Made by a program: the position numbers and the translations under genes. Under the pieces are notes generated by a model. That model worked only from the letters and a program-made list of their open reading frames with translations. It did not search any database and was not told the origin of the DNA. From Marinihelvus fidelis (GTDB taxonomy: Bacteria > Pseudomonadota > Gammaproteobacteria > Xanthomonadales > SZUA-36), in the NCBI RefSeq assembly GCF_008725655.1, contig NZ_VYXP01000006.1, forward strand, positions 62,001-126,000: a stretch of DNA of 64,000 nt, written 5' to 3'. This document shows, one piece after another, positions 16,993 through 52,419 of this stretch; the stretch's first letter is position 1; each line of letters opens with the position of its first letter.

Positions 16993-19194
16993 ATGCAAGC
17001 CGAACCCTCCATCCGCCACCAACTGGAACGCGACACGCTGAAACGACACCCGCGCCTTGTCCTCGACCGCGCCCGCCGGCGCCAGGCCCTGGCCCGCGCC
17101 GAGGCGCGCATGCAGGGCCGGGCCCGCGACCAGCACAGGCCGGCGCCCGAGCGCCGACCGCTGCGATGGCAGGACCGCGTGCTGCTGTGCCTGGCCGTGG
17201 CACTGATGCTGATGCTGCTCTTGCGCATGGAAACCGCCCAGGCCGACACCCCGTTCGGCCTGCAACTCCAGCCCCTGGCCGAGGCCGTCACCGACGCCGC
17301 CATGCCGGAGCCACAGGTGCAGCTGGCGCTGGACACCATGGTCCACGTTGAGGTCAACGGGCTGGTCGCGCGGGTCCAGGTGGCGCAGACCTTCAGGAAC
17401 GACAGCCCGCAATGGGTGGAAGGCACCTACCGCTACCCGCTGCCGGATGGCGCCGCGGTGGATCGCCTGTGGATCCGCGCCGGCGACCGCCTGCTGGAAG
17501 GCGAGATCCGCGAGCGTGAAGACGCGCAGCGCGTCTACCAGGCCGCGCGCGACAGCGGCCGGGCGGCCGGCCTGGTCACCCAGGAACGGCGCCACCAGTT
17601 CAGCACGCGCCTGGCCAATATCGGCCCGGGCGAGCAGGTCCACGTGGTGATTGCCTACCTGGTCAACGTCGATTTCAGCGACGGCCGCTTCGACCTGCGC
17701 CTGCCGATGACCTTCACGCCGGCCTATGACCTGGCGCCGCAACAACTGGCGCCACGCCCCACCTACACCAGCCAGGTGGACGGCGATGAGCGGCGCCTGC
17801 GCATGCAGGTCGACCTGGTCACCGCCATCGGCATGGACGCGATCCGCTCACACCACCACGACGTCGACATCGAGACCCGCCCCGACGGCTACCGCGTGAC
17901 CCTGTCCGACGGCTTGGCCCGGCCGGACCGCGACTTCGAACTCAGCTGGGCCCCGGCGCTGGATGACGACGCGCGCGCCGCGCTGCAGACCTGGGACGAC
18001 GGCGAGTACGTTTACGCCCAGCTGATGCTGGTGCCGCCCCGCGACGACGCGCTGGTGCCGCAATCGCGGGAAGTGATCTTTATTATCGACACCTCTGGCT
18101 CGATGATGGGCGCGTCCATCGACCAGGCGCGCACGGCCCTGGCCCGCGGCATCGACGGCCTGGCCGCCGGCGACCGTTTCAACGTCATCGAATTCAACAG
18201 CGAGACCACGGCGCTGTGGGACACCAGTGTGCCGGTGTCCGATGGATTCCGCGCGCAGGCGCTGGACTTCGTCGGCCGGCTGGATGCCGATGGCGGCACG
18301 ATGATGGCGCCGGCCCTGCAGCGCGCGCTGCGCCAGCCCGAGTTCGCCGGCCTGCTGCGACAGGTGGTCTTTATCACCGACGGCGCGGTGGGTAACGAGC
18401 AGGACCTGCTGGCCCTGGTCGCCGACGAACTGGCCGACGCCCGGCTGTTTACCGTGGCCATCGGCTCGGCGCCCAACAGCGGATTCATGCGTAAGGCGGC
18501 CGAGATCGGCCGGGGGCACAGCACCCACATCGGTAACCTGGACGAGGTCGAGGCACGCATGACCACGCTGTGGAACCGCATCCGCCTGCCGGCGGTCTCG
18601 GATATCCGCCTGGACTGGGGCGCCGAGGTCGAATACTACCCGGAGATCATCCCGGACCTGTACGCCGGTGAGCCGCTGTGGGTGGTGGCGCGGATGCCGC
18701 GGGCGCCGGGCGCGGTGAGCATTGTCGGCGAACTCAATGGCATGGAATGGCGCCACGATGCCATGCCCGCCATCACCGACGGCGGCGAAACCCTGGCCAC
18801 GATCTGGGCGCGCCACAAGGTCGAGGCCCTGCAGGACGCCACCGTGTTCGGTGCCGACCCGCAATGGACCCGCGCCGCAATCACCGATATCGCGCTGGAA
18901 CACGGGCTGCTCACGCAATGGACCAGCCTGGTGGCCATCGACAAGACCCCCGCCCGCCCCACCGGCGCCGAACTCGCCCGCGGCCAGGTGCGCAACCTGC
19001 TGCCCGCCGGCAGCGCCGCCACCACCGCCGGCTTCCCGGCCACCGCCACCGGCTGGAAGACGCAGATGCTGCTGGCGCTGCTGGTGCTGGCCGTATCAGG
19101 CGGGTTGTTCGCCCGCCCCTTCTTCCGCTTCCCGAAGTTCCGCTCGCCGGCGAAATCCCTCCGGGCGCTCTCCCTGGCATGGAAAGCACGTTGA
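16993..19194 (+). CDS. Dedicated sortase target protein with VIT and von Willebrand A domains
   Basis: The product is 733 residues. A basic cytoplasmic N terminus of about 60 residues leads into a membrane segment. Then come a VIT domain (about 110-225), a vWA domain with MIDAS residues Asp366, Ser368 and Ser370 (DTSGSM), and a C-terminal FPATATG motif (681-687) followed by a hydrophobic segment and a basic tail. This is the layout of the marine proteobacterial sortase target family. The start may lie further downstream, since the N-terminal extension is unusually long. The sortase gene begins inside its last codons, so the two are coupled. It probably forms a cell-surface adhesion or scaffold protein. 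Confidence 0.9.
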   Translation: MQAEPSIRHQLERDTLKRHPRLVLDRARRRQALARAEARMQGRARDQHRPAPERRPLRWQDRVLLCLAVALMLMLLLRMETAQADTPFGLQLQPLAEAVTDAAMPEPQVQLALDTMVHVEVNGLVARVQVAQTFRNDSPQWVEGTYRYPLPDGAAVDRLWIRAGDRLLEGEIREREDAQRVYQAARDSGRAAGLVTQERRHQFSTRLANIGPGEQVHVVIAYLVNVDFSDGRFDLRLPMTFTPAYDLAPQQLAPRPTYTSQVDGDERRLRMQVDLVTAIGMDAIRSHHHDVDIETRPDGYRVTLSDGLARPDRDFELSWAPALDDDARAALQTWDDGEYVYAQLMLVPPRDDALVPQSREVIFIIDTSGSMMGASIDQARTALARGIDGLAAGDRFNVIEFNSETTALWDTSVPVSDGFRAQALDFVGRLDADGGTMMAPALQRALRQPEFAGLLRQVVFITDGAVGNEQDLLALVADELADARLFTVAIGSAPNSGFMRKAAEIGRGHSTHIGNLDEVEARMTTLWNRIRLPAVSDIRLDWGAEVEYYPEIIPDLYAGEPLWVVARMPRAPGAVSIVGELNGMEWRHDAMPAITDGGETLATIWARHKVEALQDATVFGADPQWTRAAITDIALEHGLLTQWTSLVAIDKTPARPTGAELARGQVRNLLPAGSAATTAGFPATATGWKTQMLLALLVLAVSGGLFARPFFRFPKFRSPAKSLRALSLAWKAR

Positions 19195-19739
19195 ACCCTC
19201 GCCGGCTTTGCGCGGCGGCCCTGGCGGTCGCCGCGCTCTTTCTTCTTGCCCAGGCCGCCTGGATCCCCGCCAAAGCCTGGCTGGGCCAGCGCCTGCTGGA
19301 AGCCGCCTGGCATCGCGTCCAGTCTGGTGAACCCGACGCCCGCCCCTGGCCCTGGGCCGACACCTCGCCCGTCGCCGAGCTCGCCATTCCCCGCCTTGGA
19401 CTGCACCAGCTGGTGGTCGAGGGCGCCAGCGGCCGCAACCTGGCCTGGGCACCCGCCGCGCTGACCCCGGTCACCGGCGGCGACATCATCATCAGCGCCC
19501 ACCGCGACACACACTTCAGCGCGTTGCGCCACGCCTTACCGGGCGACCTGGTGACGCTGCGCACCCCCACCGGCGAACGCCGTTACCGAATCACCCACCA
19601 GGAAGTAATCGACAGCCGCGATACCGAACTGGTCATCGACCCGTCAGGCAACCGGCTGACCCTGGTCACCTGCTGGCCCTTCGACGCCGTCACCGCCGGC
19701 GGCCCCATGCGCTGGGTCATCAACGCCCTCCCCGCGTGA
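19179..19739 (+). CDS. Class GN sortase (marine proteobacterial type)
   Basis: The product is 186 residues with an N-terminal membrane anchor (about 9-28). The catalytic residues are His108 (SAHRDTHF), Cys165 (LVTCWPF) and Arg178 (MRWVIN). It starts at the ATG at 19179, overlapping the target gene by 16 bp. The stop codon TGA (19737-19739) lies inside the first unit of a heptad repeat array, so the gene end and the array coincide. It should process the adjacent VIT/vWA protein. Confidence 0.92.
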   Translation: MESTLNPRRLCAAALAVAALFLLAQAAWIPAKAWLGQRLLEAAWHRVQSGEPDARPWPWADTSPVAELAIPRLGLHQLVVEGASGRNLAWAPAALTPVTGGDIIISAHRDTHFSALRHALPGDLVTLRTPTGERRYRITHQEVIDSRDTELVIDPSGNRLTLVTCWPFDAVTAGGPMRWVINALPA

Positions 19740-19812
19740 CGCGTAACGCGTGACGGGTGACGGGTGACGGGTGACGGGTAACGCGTAACGCGTAACGCGT
19801 AACGCGTAACGC
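19736..19812 (+). repeat. Heptad array A, 11 units, at the end of the class-GN sortase gene
   Basis: Eleven exact 7-bp units run without interruption: GTGACGC, GTAACGC, four of GTGACGG, and five of GTAACGC. The first unit contains the TGA stop of the sortase gene. On this strand each unit carries TGA or TAA, so all three frames close within 21 bp. It leads directly into the long inverted-repeat element at 19827-19936. Confidence 0.9.
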
Positions 19813-19826
19813 GAAAGGCTCTCATT

Positions 19827-19936
19827 GGCGGGGGTGATGTTGCGTATACCCGGACCTTCGGCGGCATGGATGCCGCCGATGAGCGATACAGGGATGTACT
19901 CGAGCGAGTCCGGGTATACGCAACATCACCCCCGCC
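19827..19936. repeat. Inverted-repeat element I with a 54-nt conserved apex
   Basis: Arms of 28 bp (19827-19854 and 19909-19936) are perfectly complementary. They enclose a 54-nt apex (19855-19908) that contains GGCGGCAT-GG-ATGCCGCC and two GAGCGA motifs. The apex matches 48 of 54 bases of the apex at 51721-51774, while the arms are unrelated in sequence to the arms there. It lies between the convergent sortase and rpe genes. No coding frame or transposase is associated with it. Confidence 0.85.
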
Positions 19937-19948
19937 CGAACGAGAGGC

Positions 19949-20623
19949 TTACCCCAGCGAGTCGATTTCCGCGTTCATGCGCGCGATAGTGCGGGCGTAG
20001 TCACCGCTGCCGAAGATGGCCGAGCCGGAGACGAAGGTGTCGCAGCCCGCTTCCCACAGTTCACCGATGTTGTCGACGTCGACACCCCCATCGACCTGCA
20101 GGCGGACATCGCGGCCGGTGTCGTCGATGATGGCGCGCGCCTGGCGGATCTTGTCCATGACGTATGGGATGAATTTCTGGCCGCCGAAGCCGGGGTTCAC
20201 GGACATCAGCAGGATCATGTCGATCTTGCCCAGCAGGCAGCTGATGCTGTCCAGCGGCGTGGCCGGGTTGAGCACCACGCCCGCCTTGCAGCCGGCTTCC
20301 TTGATCAGGCTGATGGTGCGGTCGACGTGACGGGTGGCTTCCGGGTGGAAGCTGATGCCCGAAGCGCCCGCGCCCGCGAAGGCCAGGGCCAGTTCATCCA
20401 CCGGCTCCACCATCAGGTGAACGTCGATGGGCGCGGTGATGCCGTAGTTCCGCAGCGCCTTGCAGATCATCGGCCCGAAGGTCAGGTTGGGCACGTAGTG
20501 ATTATCCATCACGTCGAAATGCACCCAGTCACCACCGGCATCCAGCACCGCCTGGGTGTCCTCACCCAGCCGCGCGAAATCCGCTGACAAAATGGACGGC
20601 GCGATCACGGCAGACTGCTTCAT
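19949..20623 (-). CDS. rpe: Ribulose-phosphate 3-epimerase
   Basis: The product is 224 residues, the usual length. The start at 20623 has an AGGGG ribosome site 6 bases upstream. TIM-barrel motifs are clear: [51 protein letters not shown] and DGGV. It interconverts ribulose-5-phosphate and xylulose-5-phosphate. Inverted-repeat element I lies just past its 3' end, and heptad array B lies in its upstream region. Confidence 0.96.
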
Positions 20624-20660
20624 GGACATCCCCTGTTGATTAGTGAGTCGTTGATCACCG

Positions 20661-20723
20661 ATTTTACTACTCACCACTCACCACTCACCACTCACCCGTC
20701 ACGCGTTACGCGTTACGCGTCAC
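20661..20723 (-). repeat. Heptad array B, 8 units plus one degenerate, after djlA
   Basis: On the minus strand, starting one base after the djlA stop codon, the units are GTGACGC, two of GTAACGC, GTGACGG, three of GTGAGTG, GTGAGTA, then a degenerate GTAAAAT. It shows a step from the ACGC type to the AGTG type within one array, which links the two repeat types as one family. It occupies most of the djlA-rpe gap. Confidence 0.9.
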
Positions 20724-28013: not shown

Positions 28014-28571
28014 ATGGGTAATCGACTCTCAAAAATCTACACACGAACCGGCGATGCCGGCGACACCGGCCTGGGCGATGGCTCCCGGGTCGACAAGGAC
28101 AGCCCGCGCGTCGAGGCCTTCGGCACCGTGGACGAACTCAATTCAACGGTCGGGCTGCTGCTCGCCAGTGAACTGCCCGATGACGTGCGCACCACCCTGA
28201 CACGGCTGCAGCACGAGTTGTTCGACCTGGGCGGCGAGTTGTGCATGCCGGGCTACACGATGATTCCGGACGAGTACGTCGAGGCACTGGAGAACGATCT
28301 CGACCGGTTCAACGAGGATCTGCCGCCATTGAAGGACTTTATCCTGCCCGGTGGTTCGGAAGCCGCGGCGCGATGCCACCTGGCGCGGGTCACCTGCCGG
28401 CGGGCCGAGCGTCGCGTAGTGACGCTGGGCAAACTCGAGGACACCAACCCGGTCAGCGCCCGGTACCTGAACCGGCTGTCGGACCTGTTGTTTGTGCTGG
28501 CCCGGGTTTTGGCGCGTGCGGATGGCGGCTCGGAGGTGCTGTGGGTGCATGGGGACCGGCGGGACGGGTGA
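28014..28571 (+). CDS. PduO-type cob(I)yrinic acid a,c-diamide adenosyltransferase
   Basis: The product is 185 residues. The N-terminal ATP-binding segment IYTRTGDAGDTGLGDGSRVDKD and the VDELNS motif are diagnostic, as is CRRAERRVV in the helical bundle. It makes adenosylcobalamin from cobalamin and ATP. No other cobalamin gene is nearby. Its last residues and the TGA stop (28569-28571) lie in the first unit of heptad array C. Confidence 0.93.
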   Translation: MGNRLSKIYTRTGDAGDTGLGDGSRVDKDSPRVEAFGTVDELNSTVGLLLASELPDDVRTTLTRLQHELFDLGGELCMPGYTMIPDEYVEALENDLDRFNEDLPPLKDFILPGGSEAAARCHLARVTCRRAERRVVTLGKLEDTNPVSARYLNRLSDLLFVLARVLARADGGSEVLWVHGDRRDG

Positions 28572-28623
28572 CTGGTGACGCGTTACGCGTTACGCGTTAC
28601 GCGTTACGCGTTACGCGTGACAA
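28568..28623 (+). repeat. Heptad array C, mixed orientation, after the adenosyltransferase gene
   Basis: Units are GTGACTG (with the stop codon), GTGACGC, five of GTTACGC, and a final GTGACAA. GTTACGC is the reverse complement phase of the GTAACGC repeat, so most of this array is inverted relative to the upstream gene and has no stop codons on this strand. It ends 9 bp before the ribosome site of the peptidase gene. Confidence 0.88.
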
Positions 28624-28644
28624 GACAATACGGAGGAGGTGAGC

Positions 28645-30660
28645 GTGAAGCGGATTGTTGTTGGGTTGATTGGGGTGGTGGTGGCGCCGTTGGTGGGGGC
28701 CGAGGTGTTGAAGAACGTGGACATCTTCGAGATGGAGGTGGCCAGCGATCCGCGGATCTCGCCCAACGGCGAGCAGGTGGTGTACGTGCGGCGGTCGATG
28801 GACATCATGACCGACCGGCCCAATGGCGATCTCTGGATCATCGGCACCAACGGCCAGGGTCACCGGCCGATTCTTTCCGGGGCGGACAGCTACGGCAGCC
28901 CGCGCTGGTCTCCCGATGGTAGCCGGCTGGCGTATGTTTCCAGTGTCGAGGGCCGCGGGCCGCAGATTCACGTGCGCTGGATGGACACGGGCCAGACCGC
29001 GGTACTGAGCAATCTGCGCAACTCTCCATCATCACTCACCTGGTCTCCGGATGGCCGCCAGCTGGCCTTCACCCAGTTCGTGCCCGGCGAGAGCAAGGCG
29101 CTGGCCGCGCCGCCACCGAAACCGGAAGGCGCCGAATGGGCGCCGCCGGTGAAGGTCTTCGACACCCTGCCCTTCCAGGCCGATGGCCAGGGCTTCCTGG
29201 ACGTGGGCCGTGACCACGTGTTCGTCATTTCCGCCGAGGGCGGCACCCCCCGCCAGCTGACCAGTGGTGATTTCGACCACGGCGGCCGGTTGGCCTGGCA
29301 CCCGGACGGCAAGGCCATCATCGTTGCCGCGAACCGCCAGGACGACGCCGAGCACGACCCCATCGAGTCCGAGCTCTGGTCCATCGACCTGGCCAGCGGC
29401 GCCATGGCGGCGCTCACCGACCGCAACGGCCCGGACGCCGCTCCTGCCCTCTCACCGGACGGCAAGACGCTGGCCTGGCTGGGCTACGACGACAAGCTGA
29501 TGGGCTACGAGAACACGGCCGTGTACGTCATGTCCCTGGAGGACGGCGAGCCGCGCCGCATCAGCGGCGATTTCGACCGCAGCATCGATGACGTGCAGTG
29601 GGCCGGTAATTCCCGCTCGCTGCTGGTCCAGTACGACGACCACGGCCGCACCCACATCGCCAGTCTGTCAATGGACGGCGATATCGACTCCCTGGCCGAT
29701 GACGTGGGTGGCGCCATCCTGGGGCGTCCTTACACCAGCGGCAGCTTCACCGTGGCCCGTGACGGCAACTACGCCTACACTGCGGGCCGCCCAGACCGGC
29801 CCGCCGATGTCGGCGTCGGCCGGGGTAACCGCGAACCGCGCCGCATCACCGCGCTGAACGAGGACGCGCTGGGTCACAAGGAACTGGCGAAGATCGAGGA
29901 GATCAACTGGGCCTCGTCGGCCGACGGCCTGGATATCCAGGGCTGGGTCGCCTACCCGCCCGGTTTCGATGCCAGCAAGAAGTATCCGTTGATCCTGGAG
30001 ATCCATGGCGGCCCTCGCGCGGCCTATGGCCCGCAGTTCTCACCGGAGATCCAGCTGTTCGCCGCGGCCGGCTACGTGGTGCTGTACGCCAACCCGCGCG
30101 GCTCGACCAGTTACGGCTACGACTTCGTCAACGAGATTCACCACAATTATCCCAGCGCCGACTACGACGACCTGATGTCAGGCGTCGATGCCGTCATCGC
30201 GAAGGGCTTTATCGACGAGGACCAGCTGTTCGTCACCGGCGGCTCCGGCGGCGGACTGCTGACGGCGTGGATCGTCGGCAAGACCGACCGATTCGCCGCG
30301 GCCGTCAGCGCCAAACCGGTGATCAACTGGGTGAGCCACGTGCTGACCGCCGATTTCACCCACTTTTTCAGCCGCTACTGGTTCGAGAAGATGCCCTGGG
30401 AAGACCCGGAAACCTACTGGGCGCAGTCGCCGCTGTCGCTGGTAGGCAATGTCACCACGCCCACCGCCTTACTGACCGGCGAATCGGACGTTCGCACGCC
30501 GATGACCGAGTCCGAGCAGTTCTACCAGGCACTGAAGCTGAGGAAAGTCGACACGGCGCTGATCCGCGTACCAGAGGCGTACCACGGCATCGTCGCCCGA
30601 CCCTCGCACCTGATCGCGAAGGTGGACAACATCCTGGCCTGGTTCGAGCGCTACCGGTGA
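28645..30660 (+). CDS. S9-family (prolyl oligopeptidase type) serine peptidase
   Basis: The product is 671 residues from the GTG at 28645, which has a GGAGG site 8 bases upstream; another GTG lies at 28639. A signal peptide spans about 1-20. A WD40-like beta-propeller (about 30-400) precedes an alpha/beta hydrolase domain with Ser534 (GGSGGG), Asp615 (GESDVRTPM) and His647 (AYHG). It probably cleaves short peptides in the periplasm. The stop TGA falls within the first unit of the heptad array that follows. Confidence 0.92.
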   Translation: MKRIVVGLIGVVVAPLVGAEVLKNVDIFEMEVASDPRISPNGEQVVYVRRSMDIMTDRPNGDLWIIGTNGQGHRPILSGADSYGSPRWSPDGSRLAYVSSVEGRGPQIHVRWMDTGQTAVLSNLRNSPSSLTWSPDGRQLAFTQFVPGESKALAAPPPKPEGAEWAPPVKVFDTLPFQADGQGFLDVGRDHVFVISAEGGTPRQLTSGDFDHGGRLAWHPDGKAIIVAANRQDDAEHDPIESELWSIDLASGAMAALTDRNGPDAAPALSPDGKTLAWLGYDDKLMGYENTAVYVMSLEDGEPRRISGDFDRSIDDVQWAGNSRSLLVQYDDHGRTHIASLSMDGDIDSLADDVGGAILGRPYTSGSFTVARDGNYAYTAGRPDRPADVGVGRGNREPRRITALNEDALGHKELAKIEEINWASSADGLDIQGWVAYPPGFDASKKYPLILEIHGGPRAAYGPQFSPEIQLFAAAGYVVLYANPRGSTSYGYDFVNEIHHNYPSADYDDLMSGVDAVIAKGFIDEDQLFVTGGSGGGLLTAWIVGKTDRFAAAVSAKPVINWVSHVLTADFTHFFSRYWFEKMPWEDPETYWAQSPLSLVGNVTTPTALLTGESDVRTPMTESEQFYQALKLRKVDTALIRVPEAYHGIVARPSHLIAKVDNILAWFERYR

Positions 30661-30791
30661 GTGGGTGAGTAGTGAGTAGGGAGTAGTGAGTAGTAAAAAC
30701 CTCCTTCGAAGGAGCCCTTACTACTCACTACTCACCACTCACCACTCACCACTCACTACTCACTACTCACTACTCACTACTCACTACTCAC
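30657..30791. repeat. Heptad arrays D, convergent pair forming a large palindrome around a terminator hairpin
   Basis: From the peptidase stop, plus-strand units are GTGAGTG, two of GTGAGTA, GGGAGTA, GTGAGTA and a degenerate GTAAAAA. From the htpX end, minus-strand units (30791-30722) are five GTGAGTA, three GTGAGTG and two GTGAGTA. Both stop codons lie in repeat units. Between the arms is CTCCTTCGAAGGAG (30701-30714), which on the minus strand is followed by five T and can terminate htpX transcription. The two arms can pair over most of their length. Confidence 0.9.
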
Positions 30792-31662
30792 TCAAAGCGG
30801 CGATGCGCTCCGTGAGCGGGGGATGACTCATGAACAGGCGCTTGAAGCCCTGGCCAATGCTGCCGGAGATGCCGAAGGCAGCCATTTCGCCGGGCAGGTC
30901 CTTCGGCTCGCTGGTGCGTTGCAGTGCGCGAAGCGCGTCGGCCATGTTCTGGCGGCCGGCCAGGCTGGCGCCGCCCTCGTCGGCACGAAATTCACGACGT
31001 CGTGAGAACCACATGACAATCATGCTGGCCAGGATCGACAGCAGCAGCTGCGCGACGATGGTGACGATGAAATAGGCCGGGCCGTAGCCGCGCTCGACCT
31101 TGAACACCACGCGGTCGACCACGTGGCCGATCACCCTCGACAGGAAAATCACGAAGGTATTCACCACGCCCTGGAGCAGGCCCATGGTGACCATGTCGCC
31201 GTTGGCTACGTGGGCCACTTCGTGCCCCAGCACCGCCTCGACTTCATTCGGTTTCATGCTGCGCAGCAGTCCGGTGGATACCGCCACCAGCGAGTCGTTG
31301 CGGCGCATGCCGGTGGCGAAGGCGTTGGGCTGGTCGGAATTGAAGATGCCGACCTCCGGCATGCCGATACCCGCGGCTTCGGCCTGCTTGCGGACGGTGT
31401 CCACCAACCAGCGCTCGGTGGCGTTGGACGGCTCCTCGATGACATGCACGCCCATGCCGCGCTTGGCCATGAACTTGGACATGGCCAGGGAGATAAAGGA
31501 GCCGCTGAATCCGATAACGGCCGACATGACCAGCAGCGCGGTCAGGTTCAGGTCGACGCCGTTCTCAGCCAGCACCGATTCGATACCCAGCACGCGGAAC
31601 ACGATGCTGATCAGTACGAGCACCGCGGCGTTGGTCGCCAGGAACAACATGATTCGCATCAT
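30784..31662 (-). CDS. htpX: HtpX membrane zinc metalloprotease
   Basis: The product is 292 residues. Four membrane segments are expected, two at the N terminus and two around residues 160-220. The zinc motif [11 protein letters not shown] is near residue 145, with a third ligand in the EFRADEGGA segment. HtpX degrades misfolded inner-membrane proteins. A second ATG at 31659 is also possible. The final residues LSE and the TAG stop are encoded by heptad repeat units. Confidence 0.96.
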
Positions 31663-38784: not shown

Positions 38785-38912
38785 GGCAGGCGGTAGGCGT
38801 TAAGAGGTAGGAGGCAGGAGGCAGGAGGCAGGAGGCAGGAGGTAGGAGAAATTCGCGGCGGCGAAGACGCGTGTCACTCTTTACTCCTCACTCCTCCCGC
38901 CTCACCACTCAC
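38785..38912. repeat. Heptad arrays F, convergent pair with GGCAGGA-type units
   Basis: Plus-strand units from 38785: GGCAGGC, GGTAGGC, GTTAAGA, GGTAGGA, four of GGCAGGA, GGTAGGA. Minus-strand units from 38912 to 38871: GTGAGTG, GTGAGGC, GGGAGGA, GTGAGGA, GTAAAGA, GTGACAC. A small hairpin TTCGC-GGCG-GCGAA separates the arms. The hemY stop codon lies in the first minus-strand unit. The minus arm mixes three unit types of the family. Confidence 0.85.
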
Positions 38913-51678: not shown

Positions 51679-51693
51679 GAGCAGCTTCGCCTT

Positions 51694-51801
51694 GTGGTGC
51701 CGGCCTGGCAAGCACCGGGGCCTTCGGCGGCAAGGATGCCGCCGATGAGCGATCCATGGACGGACTTGAGCGAGCCCCGGGGGTTGCCAGGCCGGCACCA
51801 C
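51694..51801. repeat. Inverted-repeat element II with a 54-nt conserved apex
   Basis: Arms of 27 bp (51694-51720 and 51775-51801) pair with two mismatches and enclose a 54-nt apex (51721-51774). The apex matches element I at 48 of 54 positions and has the same length; the arms do not resemble those of element I. It lies 75 bp upstream of the hslV start and could be in its 5' leader. Confidence 0.82.
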
Positions 51802-51876
51802 ACCACGCGAGCGGCTTGCGTTGCGGCCTCACCCGCCCCATGTATTGCTTCACGAAACACAAGCGGAGACGCACAC

Positions 51877-52419
51877 GTGGAACAGTATCGGGGCACCACC
51901 ATTTGCTCCGTCCGCCGCGGTAACACCGTGGTCATGGGCGGCGACGGCCAGGTCACACTGGGCAATACCGTCATGAAACATAACGCGCGCAAGGTGCGGC
52001 GCCTGTACAAGGGCCAGGTGCTGGCCGGGTTCGCCGGCGCCACGGCCGATGCCTTCACGCTGTTCGAGCGCTTCGAGGGCAAGCTGGAAAAGCATTCCGG
52101 CCACCTGGTGCGCGCCGCCGTCGAAATGGCGAAGGACTGGCGCACCGACCGCATGCTGCGCCGCCTGGAAGCGCTGCTGGCCATCGCCGACGCCAACGAC
52201 TCATTGCTGATTTCCGGCAACGGTGATGTGATCGAGCCGGAAAACGGCCTGATCGCCATCGGTTCCGGCGGCCCGTTCGCGCAGTCGGCCGCTATGGCGC
52301 TGCTGGCGGAAACCGAACTGGGCGCGGAAGCCATCGTGCGACGCTCGCTGGGCATCGCCGCGGACATCTGCATTTACACCAACGACAACATCATTATCGA
52401 GACGCTGGAGACCGACTGA
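51877..52419 (+). CDS. hslV: HslV, ATP-dependent protease peptidase subunit
   Basis: The product is 180 residues from a GTG with GGAG 9 bases upstream. The start [14 protein letters not shown] places the catalytic N-terminal threonine after a short propeptide. The Lys-Arg region [22 protein letters not shown] is conserved in pieces. It forms the peptidase core of HslVU. It overlaps nothing; hslU starts one base after its stop. Confidence 0.97.

Follow-up and report, generated by a model that had tools for sequence, protein, structure and literature searches.

A dispersed hairpin element with two GGA loops in Marinihelvus fidelis and other gammaproteobacteria, a possible docking site for CsrA

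In a 64,000-nt stretch of the Marinihelvus fidelis genome (here, the window; contig NZ_VYXP01000006.1:62,001-126,000, forward strand, assembly GCF_008725655.1), we identified two copies of an element of ∼110 nt that consists of a 28-bp stem with a sharp end and a ∼54-nt tip bearing two hairpins. It is close to certain that the element is selected, folded, and one-stranded. Copies, structure, covariation, strand bias, loop conservation, and placement are all observed. The best explanation we can offer, which in our judgment could equally well prove right or wrong, is a dispersed intergenic or 3′-UTR RNA element that docks a CsrA dimer at its tip and spreads in a MITE-like manner; CsrA binding, transcription, RNase III cleavage, and the spreading mechanism are inferred. 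Comparisons drew on the window's own genome (G000; 3.43 Mb in 17 contigs) and that of a congener (G001). The relevant features of the window are as follows.

18678..19739, + strand: upstream gene with a sortase domain (Pfam PF04203)
19733..19813, no strand: heptad array CGCGTAA/CGCGTGA on the 5′ side of copy 1 (TRF, 11.6 copies)
19827..19936, + strand (GGA loops on the + strand): element copy 1, whole 110-nt hairpin (R1 match, 124 bits; fold z, -11.2)
19827..19854, + strand: copy 1, 5′ arm, 28 nt (28/28 Watson-Crick with 19909-19936)
19858..19879, + strand: copy 1, hairpin 1, loop motif ATGGA at 19866-19870 (predicted fold)
19884..19902, + strand: copy 1, hairpin 2, UACAGGGAUGUA, loop motif AGGGA at 19890-19894 (predicted fold)
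19909..19936, + strand: copy 1, 3′ arm, 28 nt (pairs with the 5′ arm)
19949..20677, - strand: ribulose-phosphate 3-epimerase gene (Pfam PF00834), stop codon 12 nt from the 3′ end of copy 1
28560..28700, no strand: empty site, heptads only in G000; G001 has an element here (L129:2982-3091; alignment, TRF)
51693..51802, + strand: element copy 2, whole hairpin (R1 match, 112.6 bits; fold z, -9.0)
51693..51720, + strand: copy 2, 5′ arm (26/28 pairs Watson-Crick, two broken)
51721..51774, + strand: copy 2, apex with two hairpins, AAGGA at 51732-51736 and ATGGA at 51756-51760 (fold; positions via alignment)
51775..51802, + strand: copy 2, 3′ arm (pairs with the 5′ arm)
51877..52419, + strand: hslV-like gene downstream of copy 2, start codon assumed (Pfam PF00227)

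The two copies were first described from the letters alone, and that sequence-only reading was accurate for copy 1, which indeed has perfect 28-bp arms (zero mismatch; 29 bp by repeat search) around a 54-nt apex. Its account of the second copy held for the apex, which has the same length and shares 48 of 54 bases with that of copy 1 (6/54 differ), and for the pairing of the arms, but not for their perfection: the 29-nt arms are 93% complementary, with two non-pairs in 28, and the element ends lie at 51693-51802. The arms of the two copies had also been called unrelated in sequence; although pairing is retained, they are not wholly unrelated, the 5′ arm being G-rich across copies with a weak common pattern by eye. 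The folding energy of the + strand as RNA lay 11.2 s.d. (copy 1) and 9.0 s.d. (copy 2) below dinucleotide shuffles, with 0 of 200 shuffles reaching it, and the - strands fold about equally well (12.3 and 8.4 s.d. below shuffles), so that folding energy cannot tell the strand. Two occurrences of the apex core were found in the window, where 0.03 would be expected; this recurrence, the fold z-scores, and the arm covariation given below rule out a chance palindrome.

A strict apex pattern gave 14 matches in G000, 13 of them real copies; the other (L014) lacks the structure and was rejected as chance. The same pattern matched five times in G001 and was present in 2 of 41 genomes. A covariance model built from 21 copies (R1) gave 52 matches in G000 and 53 in G001, which correspond to 42 and 46 distinct places after matches on the opposite strand of a listed hairpin are dropped (10/52 and 7/53). 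Ten of the 42 places touch a contig end, so some may be one copy seen on two contigs, and the true count is perhaps slightly lower. Three more lie within 200 nt of an end. These places at or near contig ends are on C2, C5, C6, C7, C8, C10, C11, C13, and C14, as if the assembly broke at elements.

Among relatives, matches were found in 33 of 61 genomes (own genome included), and their number is patchy: G057 carries 56, and its congener G036 carries none. At least 44 of 276 genomes in a class sample and at least 19 of 249 in a phylum sample had matches, all 19 of the latter in the window genome's class. These counts are lower bounds, with 13 to 15 candidates scored per genome under stricter filters, and the phylum sample is a poor control in that the number of its 249 genomes outside the class is not shown. 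In named genomes, the tip pattern occurred in at least 120 stretches, among them Oceanisphaera, Marinobacter, Reinekea, Neiella, Paraferrimonas, a Vibrio sp., and Lysobacterales drafts; 80 of these stretches were examined, and complementary arms accompany 64 of their 84 pattern matches at a loose threshold that admits some chance cases. A single 54-nt query at blastn sensitivity found no match in plasmids or phages, and virus contigs yielded little: one stretch, in which a lone hairpin sits in a different context, plus eight by pattern match alone. Three sets of elements were used in what follows: 80 from the own genus (117 matches, less 36 on the opposite strand and one cut by a contig end); 57 of 60 matches from relatives and the class; and 69 hand-picked from 95 matches in named records, omitting G001 records, opposite-strand and cut-off matches, and some low-scoring rows. 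The two wider sets overlap in at least three records (e.g., L049 and L164). Individual matches include an array of five in direct orientation, ∼227 bp apart (G487:C1:94415-95435), and two elements with a ∼66-nt insert ahead of the second GGA loop and arms still paired (L112:5857-6031 and L152:3213-3390).

Across 19 copies, double-sided changes occurred at 27 of the 28 arm pairs and 97.1% of cells were paired over the whole structure, with a covariation score of 0.592 versus 0.139 shuffled and at most 0.093 slid. For 56 elements from 48 other genomes, double-sided changes were seen in 28/28 arm pairs, 9/9 pairs of hairpin 1, and 5/7 pairs of hairpin 2, and the score was 0.944 versus 0.203 shuffled and at most 0.168 slid. 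The latter alignment was fitted to the model; RNAalifold, run on the same alignment, recovered the long stem together with seven pairs of hairpin 1 and three of hairpin 2. The length of the stem is fixed: arm positions 2 to 28 are paired in 72 to 80 of 80 elements and the outermost in 64, and the next 15 positions outside, in the same register, are 23 to 59% paired. The sequence-only reading would have been refuted by an absence of further copies in the genome and its relatives or by copies with unpaired arms, and neither outcome was met: the own genome holds 42 distinct places, and the arms covary and stay paired.

An RNA stem tolerates G-U pairs, whereas A-C breaks pairing. Imperfect arm pairs on the GGA strand were G-T versus A-C in 18 versus 2 cases in the first 19 copies, 75 versus 18 in the own genus (p = 1.9e-9; 76/80 elements), 59 versus 12 in relatives and class (57 elements), and 89 versus 20 in named records (48/69 elements), where inclusion required at least 20 Watson-Crick pairs in the own genus (76/80) and at least 18 in the wider sets (57/57 and 48/69). 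The p-values are indicative only: the copies are kin, the later sets were found by a G-U-tolerant model, and the wider sets share a few records. Because G-T far exceeds A-C on it, we conclude that the GGA strand is the folded one, as RNA or as single-stranded DNA. A DNA-hairpin mechanism is not excluded, as single-stranded DNA of the GGA strand could give a similar bias. Selection for a folded form of DNA or RNA, as originally suggested, is thus supported by covariation far above the shuffled and slid controls and by the restriction of this bias to one strand.

Another way to keep the arms identical, without any selection for folding, would be template switching at palindromes. Elements at sites common to G000 and G001 (19 by the 3′ flank, 10 of these also by the 5′ flank) have arms that evolve fast and remain nearly perfectly paired, which is consistent with such a process: 266 arm pairs changed and 266 did not, and of the changed pairs, 195 were double-sided and still paired, 18 were one-sided via G-T, and 53 were broken, the last number being inflated by two of the 19 site pairs with truncated or shifted elements (L159 and L112:13825). 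However, we infer that template switching should be strand symmetric in its outcome, yet in three sets G-T pairs outnumber A-C by four- to fivefold; in addition, the stem keeps a constant length of 28 bp, and covariation extends to the short stems of the tip. Pure template switching is disfavored by the strand bias, and we regard it as very improbable.

The GGA loops, and the closeness of the tip to CsrA sites and to the RNA family TwoAYGGAY, formed no part of the sequence-only reading. All 56 elements of other genomes keep GGA in each of the two tip loops, and the preceding base varies. In the same elements, C-A-N-GGA-Y-G of hairpin 2 is nearly invariant while the stems vary, and the first base of ANGGA in hairpin 1 is A in 37 and C in 18. 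A model built from own-lineage copies favors similar tips among its matches; other tip columns nonetheless vary widely. Loop 2 is the CsrA hexaloop ANGGAN. At least one C-ANGGAN-G occurs in 79/80, 56/57, and 68/69 apices (own genus, relatives and class, and named records), and two occur in 75, 33, and 42 of them, respectively. The ANGGA-to-ANGGA distance is 23 to 25 nt in 55 of the 56 own-genus apices that have exactly two. PMC7652899 gives RUACARGGAUGU as the CsrA SELEX consensus, with an ANGGAN hexaloop, and bridging over 10 to 63 nt with an optimum above 18 nt. The observed spacing falls inside this range, and hairpin 2 of copy 1 agrees with the consensus as quoted there. Across the 80 elements we counted 17 instances of the full consensus, against none in the surrounding sequence (906,668 bases, both strands); because the copies are related, these occurrences are a property of the family rather than independent events.

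We conclude that CsrA binding by the tip is the best explanation, at about even odds, in the absence of binding or expression data. In its favor are the invariant GGA of both loops, the ANGGAN hexaloops, their spacing, the covariation, the fixed stem, and the strand bias. Against it, loop 1 is not ANGGA in part of the relatives (those 18 of 56 with C as the first base), and hairpin 1 reaches 9 bp, whereas, according to PMC7652899, most SELEX hairpins have at most 4 contiguous pairs and very stable structure is possibly disadvantageous. One CsrA gene (PF02599) is encoded in G000, and the protein was found in 58 of 60 element-bearing genomes chosen from 91 with matches; no CsrA match was found in the other two, G016 and G233, both drafts of ∼300 contigs. 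Of 20 genomes that lack an element match, 18 encode CsrA as well, and its presence therefore discriminates nothing.

The surroundings of the elements were described with gene calls from simple home-made scripts and no trained gene finder. In the own genus, a converging gene has its stop within 60 nt of the 3′ side of the element in 55 of 80 cases, versus 10 of 73 on the 5′ side (42/80 versus 11/73 with a simpler caller), and beyond the genus the bias is weaker (24/52 versus 11/52 and 17/65 versus 14/61). Close pairs of elements face 5′ to 5′ in 10/10, 8/8, and 6/12 cases in three sets (24/30, one pair counted twice). Given this placement, the GGA strand in the genus often corresponds to the distal 3′ region of one gene, abutting the 3′ end of its neighbor. 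Copy 1 sits between the sortase-domain gene and the converging epimerase gene, and read-through from the former would make it as GGA-strand RNA. Copy 2 ends 74 nt before the assumed start, at 51877, of the PF00227 gene, which we take to be hslV. No conserved promoter was seen by eye in the 5′ flanks. Also present in the window are a gene for a VIT/VWA-domain protein followed by the sortase-domain gene (16993-19739) and 6S RNA (803-991); elsewhere, a cobalamin riboswitch (L007:1660-1856) adjoins another element copy.

A plain 3′-UTR role is awkward because the close gene points at the 3′ end of the element in those 55 of 80 cases, and its own transcript would carry the complementary strand. The bias toward converging stops on the 3′ side, the 5′-to-5′ arrangement of neighboring elements, and the very stable stems would nonetheless suit a transcript-end element, that is, a terminator, a 3′-end stabilizer, or a barrier between converging genes, whose tip binds a protein other than CsrA or none at all. 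However, only 15 of 80 elements have a run of at least four A's (a T-run as read from the converging gene) in the 45 nt preceding them, copy 2 precedes a gene start, the placement bias is weaker beyond the genus, and a terminator requires neither a branched tip nor an invariant GGA. We consider this account unlikely.

Both copies in the window follow heptads, as had been noted (about two units in the case of copy 2), but this does not extend to a general rule: among 80 elements, only 31 are preceded by an array of the typed pattern at a distance of up to 80 nt, which rules out heptads as a required part. Arrays beside elements are heptads in G000 and mostly octads (CGGTGAGA) in G001, also at shared sites. 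Other heptad tandem arrays in the window lie at 28578-28618, 30657-30792, and 38804-38848. With regard to terminal inverted repeats of the MITE kind, many copies carry by eye tails resembling GCGTNTCGC or GCGACACGC; GCGA occurs within 20 nt on the 3′ side of 39 of 80 elements, a count without a background control.

Sites shared between the two species are occupied in G001 by a G001-specific, recently spread subfamily, and in G000 a cassette of ∼180 to 200 bp with inverted heptads is common to three unrelated loci (L104, L105, and L106; by eye). Part of the arm change is replacement rather than point mutation. Together with the copy number that is patchy within a genus (G057 and G036) and the one empty site, these observations are compatible with a selfish, non-autonomous mobile DNA element, MITE- or REP-like, in which a transposase acting on single-stranded DNA hairpins recognizes one strand and pairing is kept for mobility and not for the host; the strand bias also fits single-stranded DNA. 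Such an element would leave unexplained the GGA in both loops in 56 of 56 elements. It is also opposed by the lack of any evident target duplication at the one empty site aligned, by the rarity in virus contigs and the absence of plasmid or phage matches noted above for one query, and by the 19 sites that the two species share by the 3′ flank, 10 of them by the 5′ flank too. We regard it as improbable. The earlier proposal of a small non-autonomous mobile element is thus partly supported, by the patchiness, the empty site, and the shared cassette, but not by a target duplication. At another locus, two direct copies surround 3.8 kb in G000 (L103:2785-6805) where G001 (L136) has a single element, as if by insertion or deletion between copies. 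Mobile spread and action at transcript ends are both compatible with CsrA binding and become rivals only where they replace it.

Gardner and Eldai reportedly proposed that TwoAYGGAY (RF01731) binds CsrA. No Rfam family reached its cut-off on the element in the stretches scanned (the window, 13 own-genome loci, and 20 loci of other genomes), and membership in a curated family was rejected, permissive scans giving only sub-cutoff matches on the element (e.g., Ysr224 and microRNA precursors). TwoAYGGAY, with a cut-off of 43 bits, was not reported for the window copies at E ≤ 10, nor found at E ≤ 5 in the 13 own-genome loci or at E ≤ 10 in the 20 others, and scored 34.9, 31.6, 30.6, and 30.0 bits on sister copies (150 of 199 candidates scored). 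It is the nearest family, sharing a basal stem topped by two GGA-looped hairpins, gammaproteobacterial carriers, and proposed CsrA binding, the last a prediction in PMC4333381; the fixed 28-bp arms of free sequence and the high copy number have no counterpart in the passages of PMC2864571 and PMC4333381 consulted. The element would function like the proposed CsrA-binding TwoAYGGAY but does not pass as a member. Three above-cutoff TwoAYGGAY matches do occur in G000 (C12:5118-5224, C12:230-295, and C10:70100-70177; L032-L034 and L040-L042), with very long stems and a second hairpin that differs from that of the element, and these are a second family with two GGA hairpins in this genome. The C12 matches adjoin an apparent RNase P RNA gene and mraZ (by eye).

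Sponge RNAs of the CsrB/RsmZ type resemble the element in their short hairpins with GGA loops and, by proposal, in working through CsrA titration. They differ in being one RNA with many sites, whereas each copy of the element offers two, and the copies are dispersed and number in the dozens; no CsrB/RsmX/Y/Z family matched in Rfam in the stretches scanned. REP/BIME and MITE sequences are short, dispersed, palindromic intergenic repeats, patchy in distribution, often near gene ends and in facing pairs, and REPs have a conserved GTAG-type foot and a RAYT transposase. The element shares their form as short dispersed intergenic palindromes, but conserves its tip while its arms vary, whereas REP and MITE conserve arms or termini. 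The Beggiatoaceae heptamer repeats (TAACTGA; PMC4679880) are likewise intergenic tandem 7-mers in gammaproteobacteria. They differ in unit from the arrays described here, which accompany only some elements, and that paper judges their recognition by CsrA unlikely. Two CsrA-related sRNAs of Alcanivorax, as described in the passages of PMC9788540 consulted, are unlike the element. GGAM-1, considered as a possible name for the element, appears instead to be the subject of a guanidine riboswitch study. We found no published description in the open-access literature searched, using topic searches and tip sequences as letters.

In the reading that we favor, RNA of the GGA strand forms the 28-bp stem followed by a junction with two hairpins, a GGA loop on each, spaced such that one CsrA/RsmA dimer could hold both. 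Transcripts that continue past a gene, in many cases the one 5′ of the element, and enter the spacer would end in the element or pass through it; the element would then act as a stable 3′ structure, and its tip may titrate or recruit CsrA. The long stem is a putative RNase III substrate, and cleavage could release the tip as a small CsrA decoy. Copies may spread and overwrite each other within a genome, as MITEs do.

Even without CsrA, this is a widespread structured element, claimed by no Rfam model at cut-off in the stretches scanned. It follows an unusual rule: the sequence of the arms is free, their length is fixed, and the GGA loops are invariant. CsrA binding yields a clean prediction that could be tested by one gel shift. 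More tentatively, and with a greater chance of being wrong than right, we suggest a self-dispersing RNA family across much of one class whose tip docks a CsrA dimer. Its dozens of decoys or recruitment sites in 3′ regions would amount to a distributed Csr system, replacing or topping a single sponge RNA, and its sequence-free 28-bp arms would be measured by length, perhaps as an RNase III ruler. Should the tip bind CsrA, a global post-transcriptional regulator would meet dozens of mobile sites that vary in copy number, the modeling of Csr titration would change, and the spread of a repeat would be linked with regulation.
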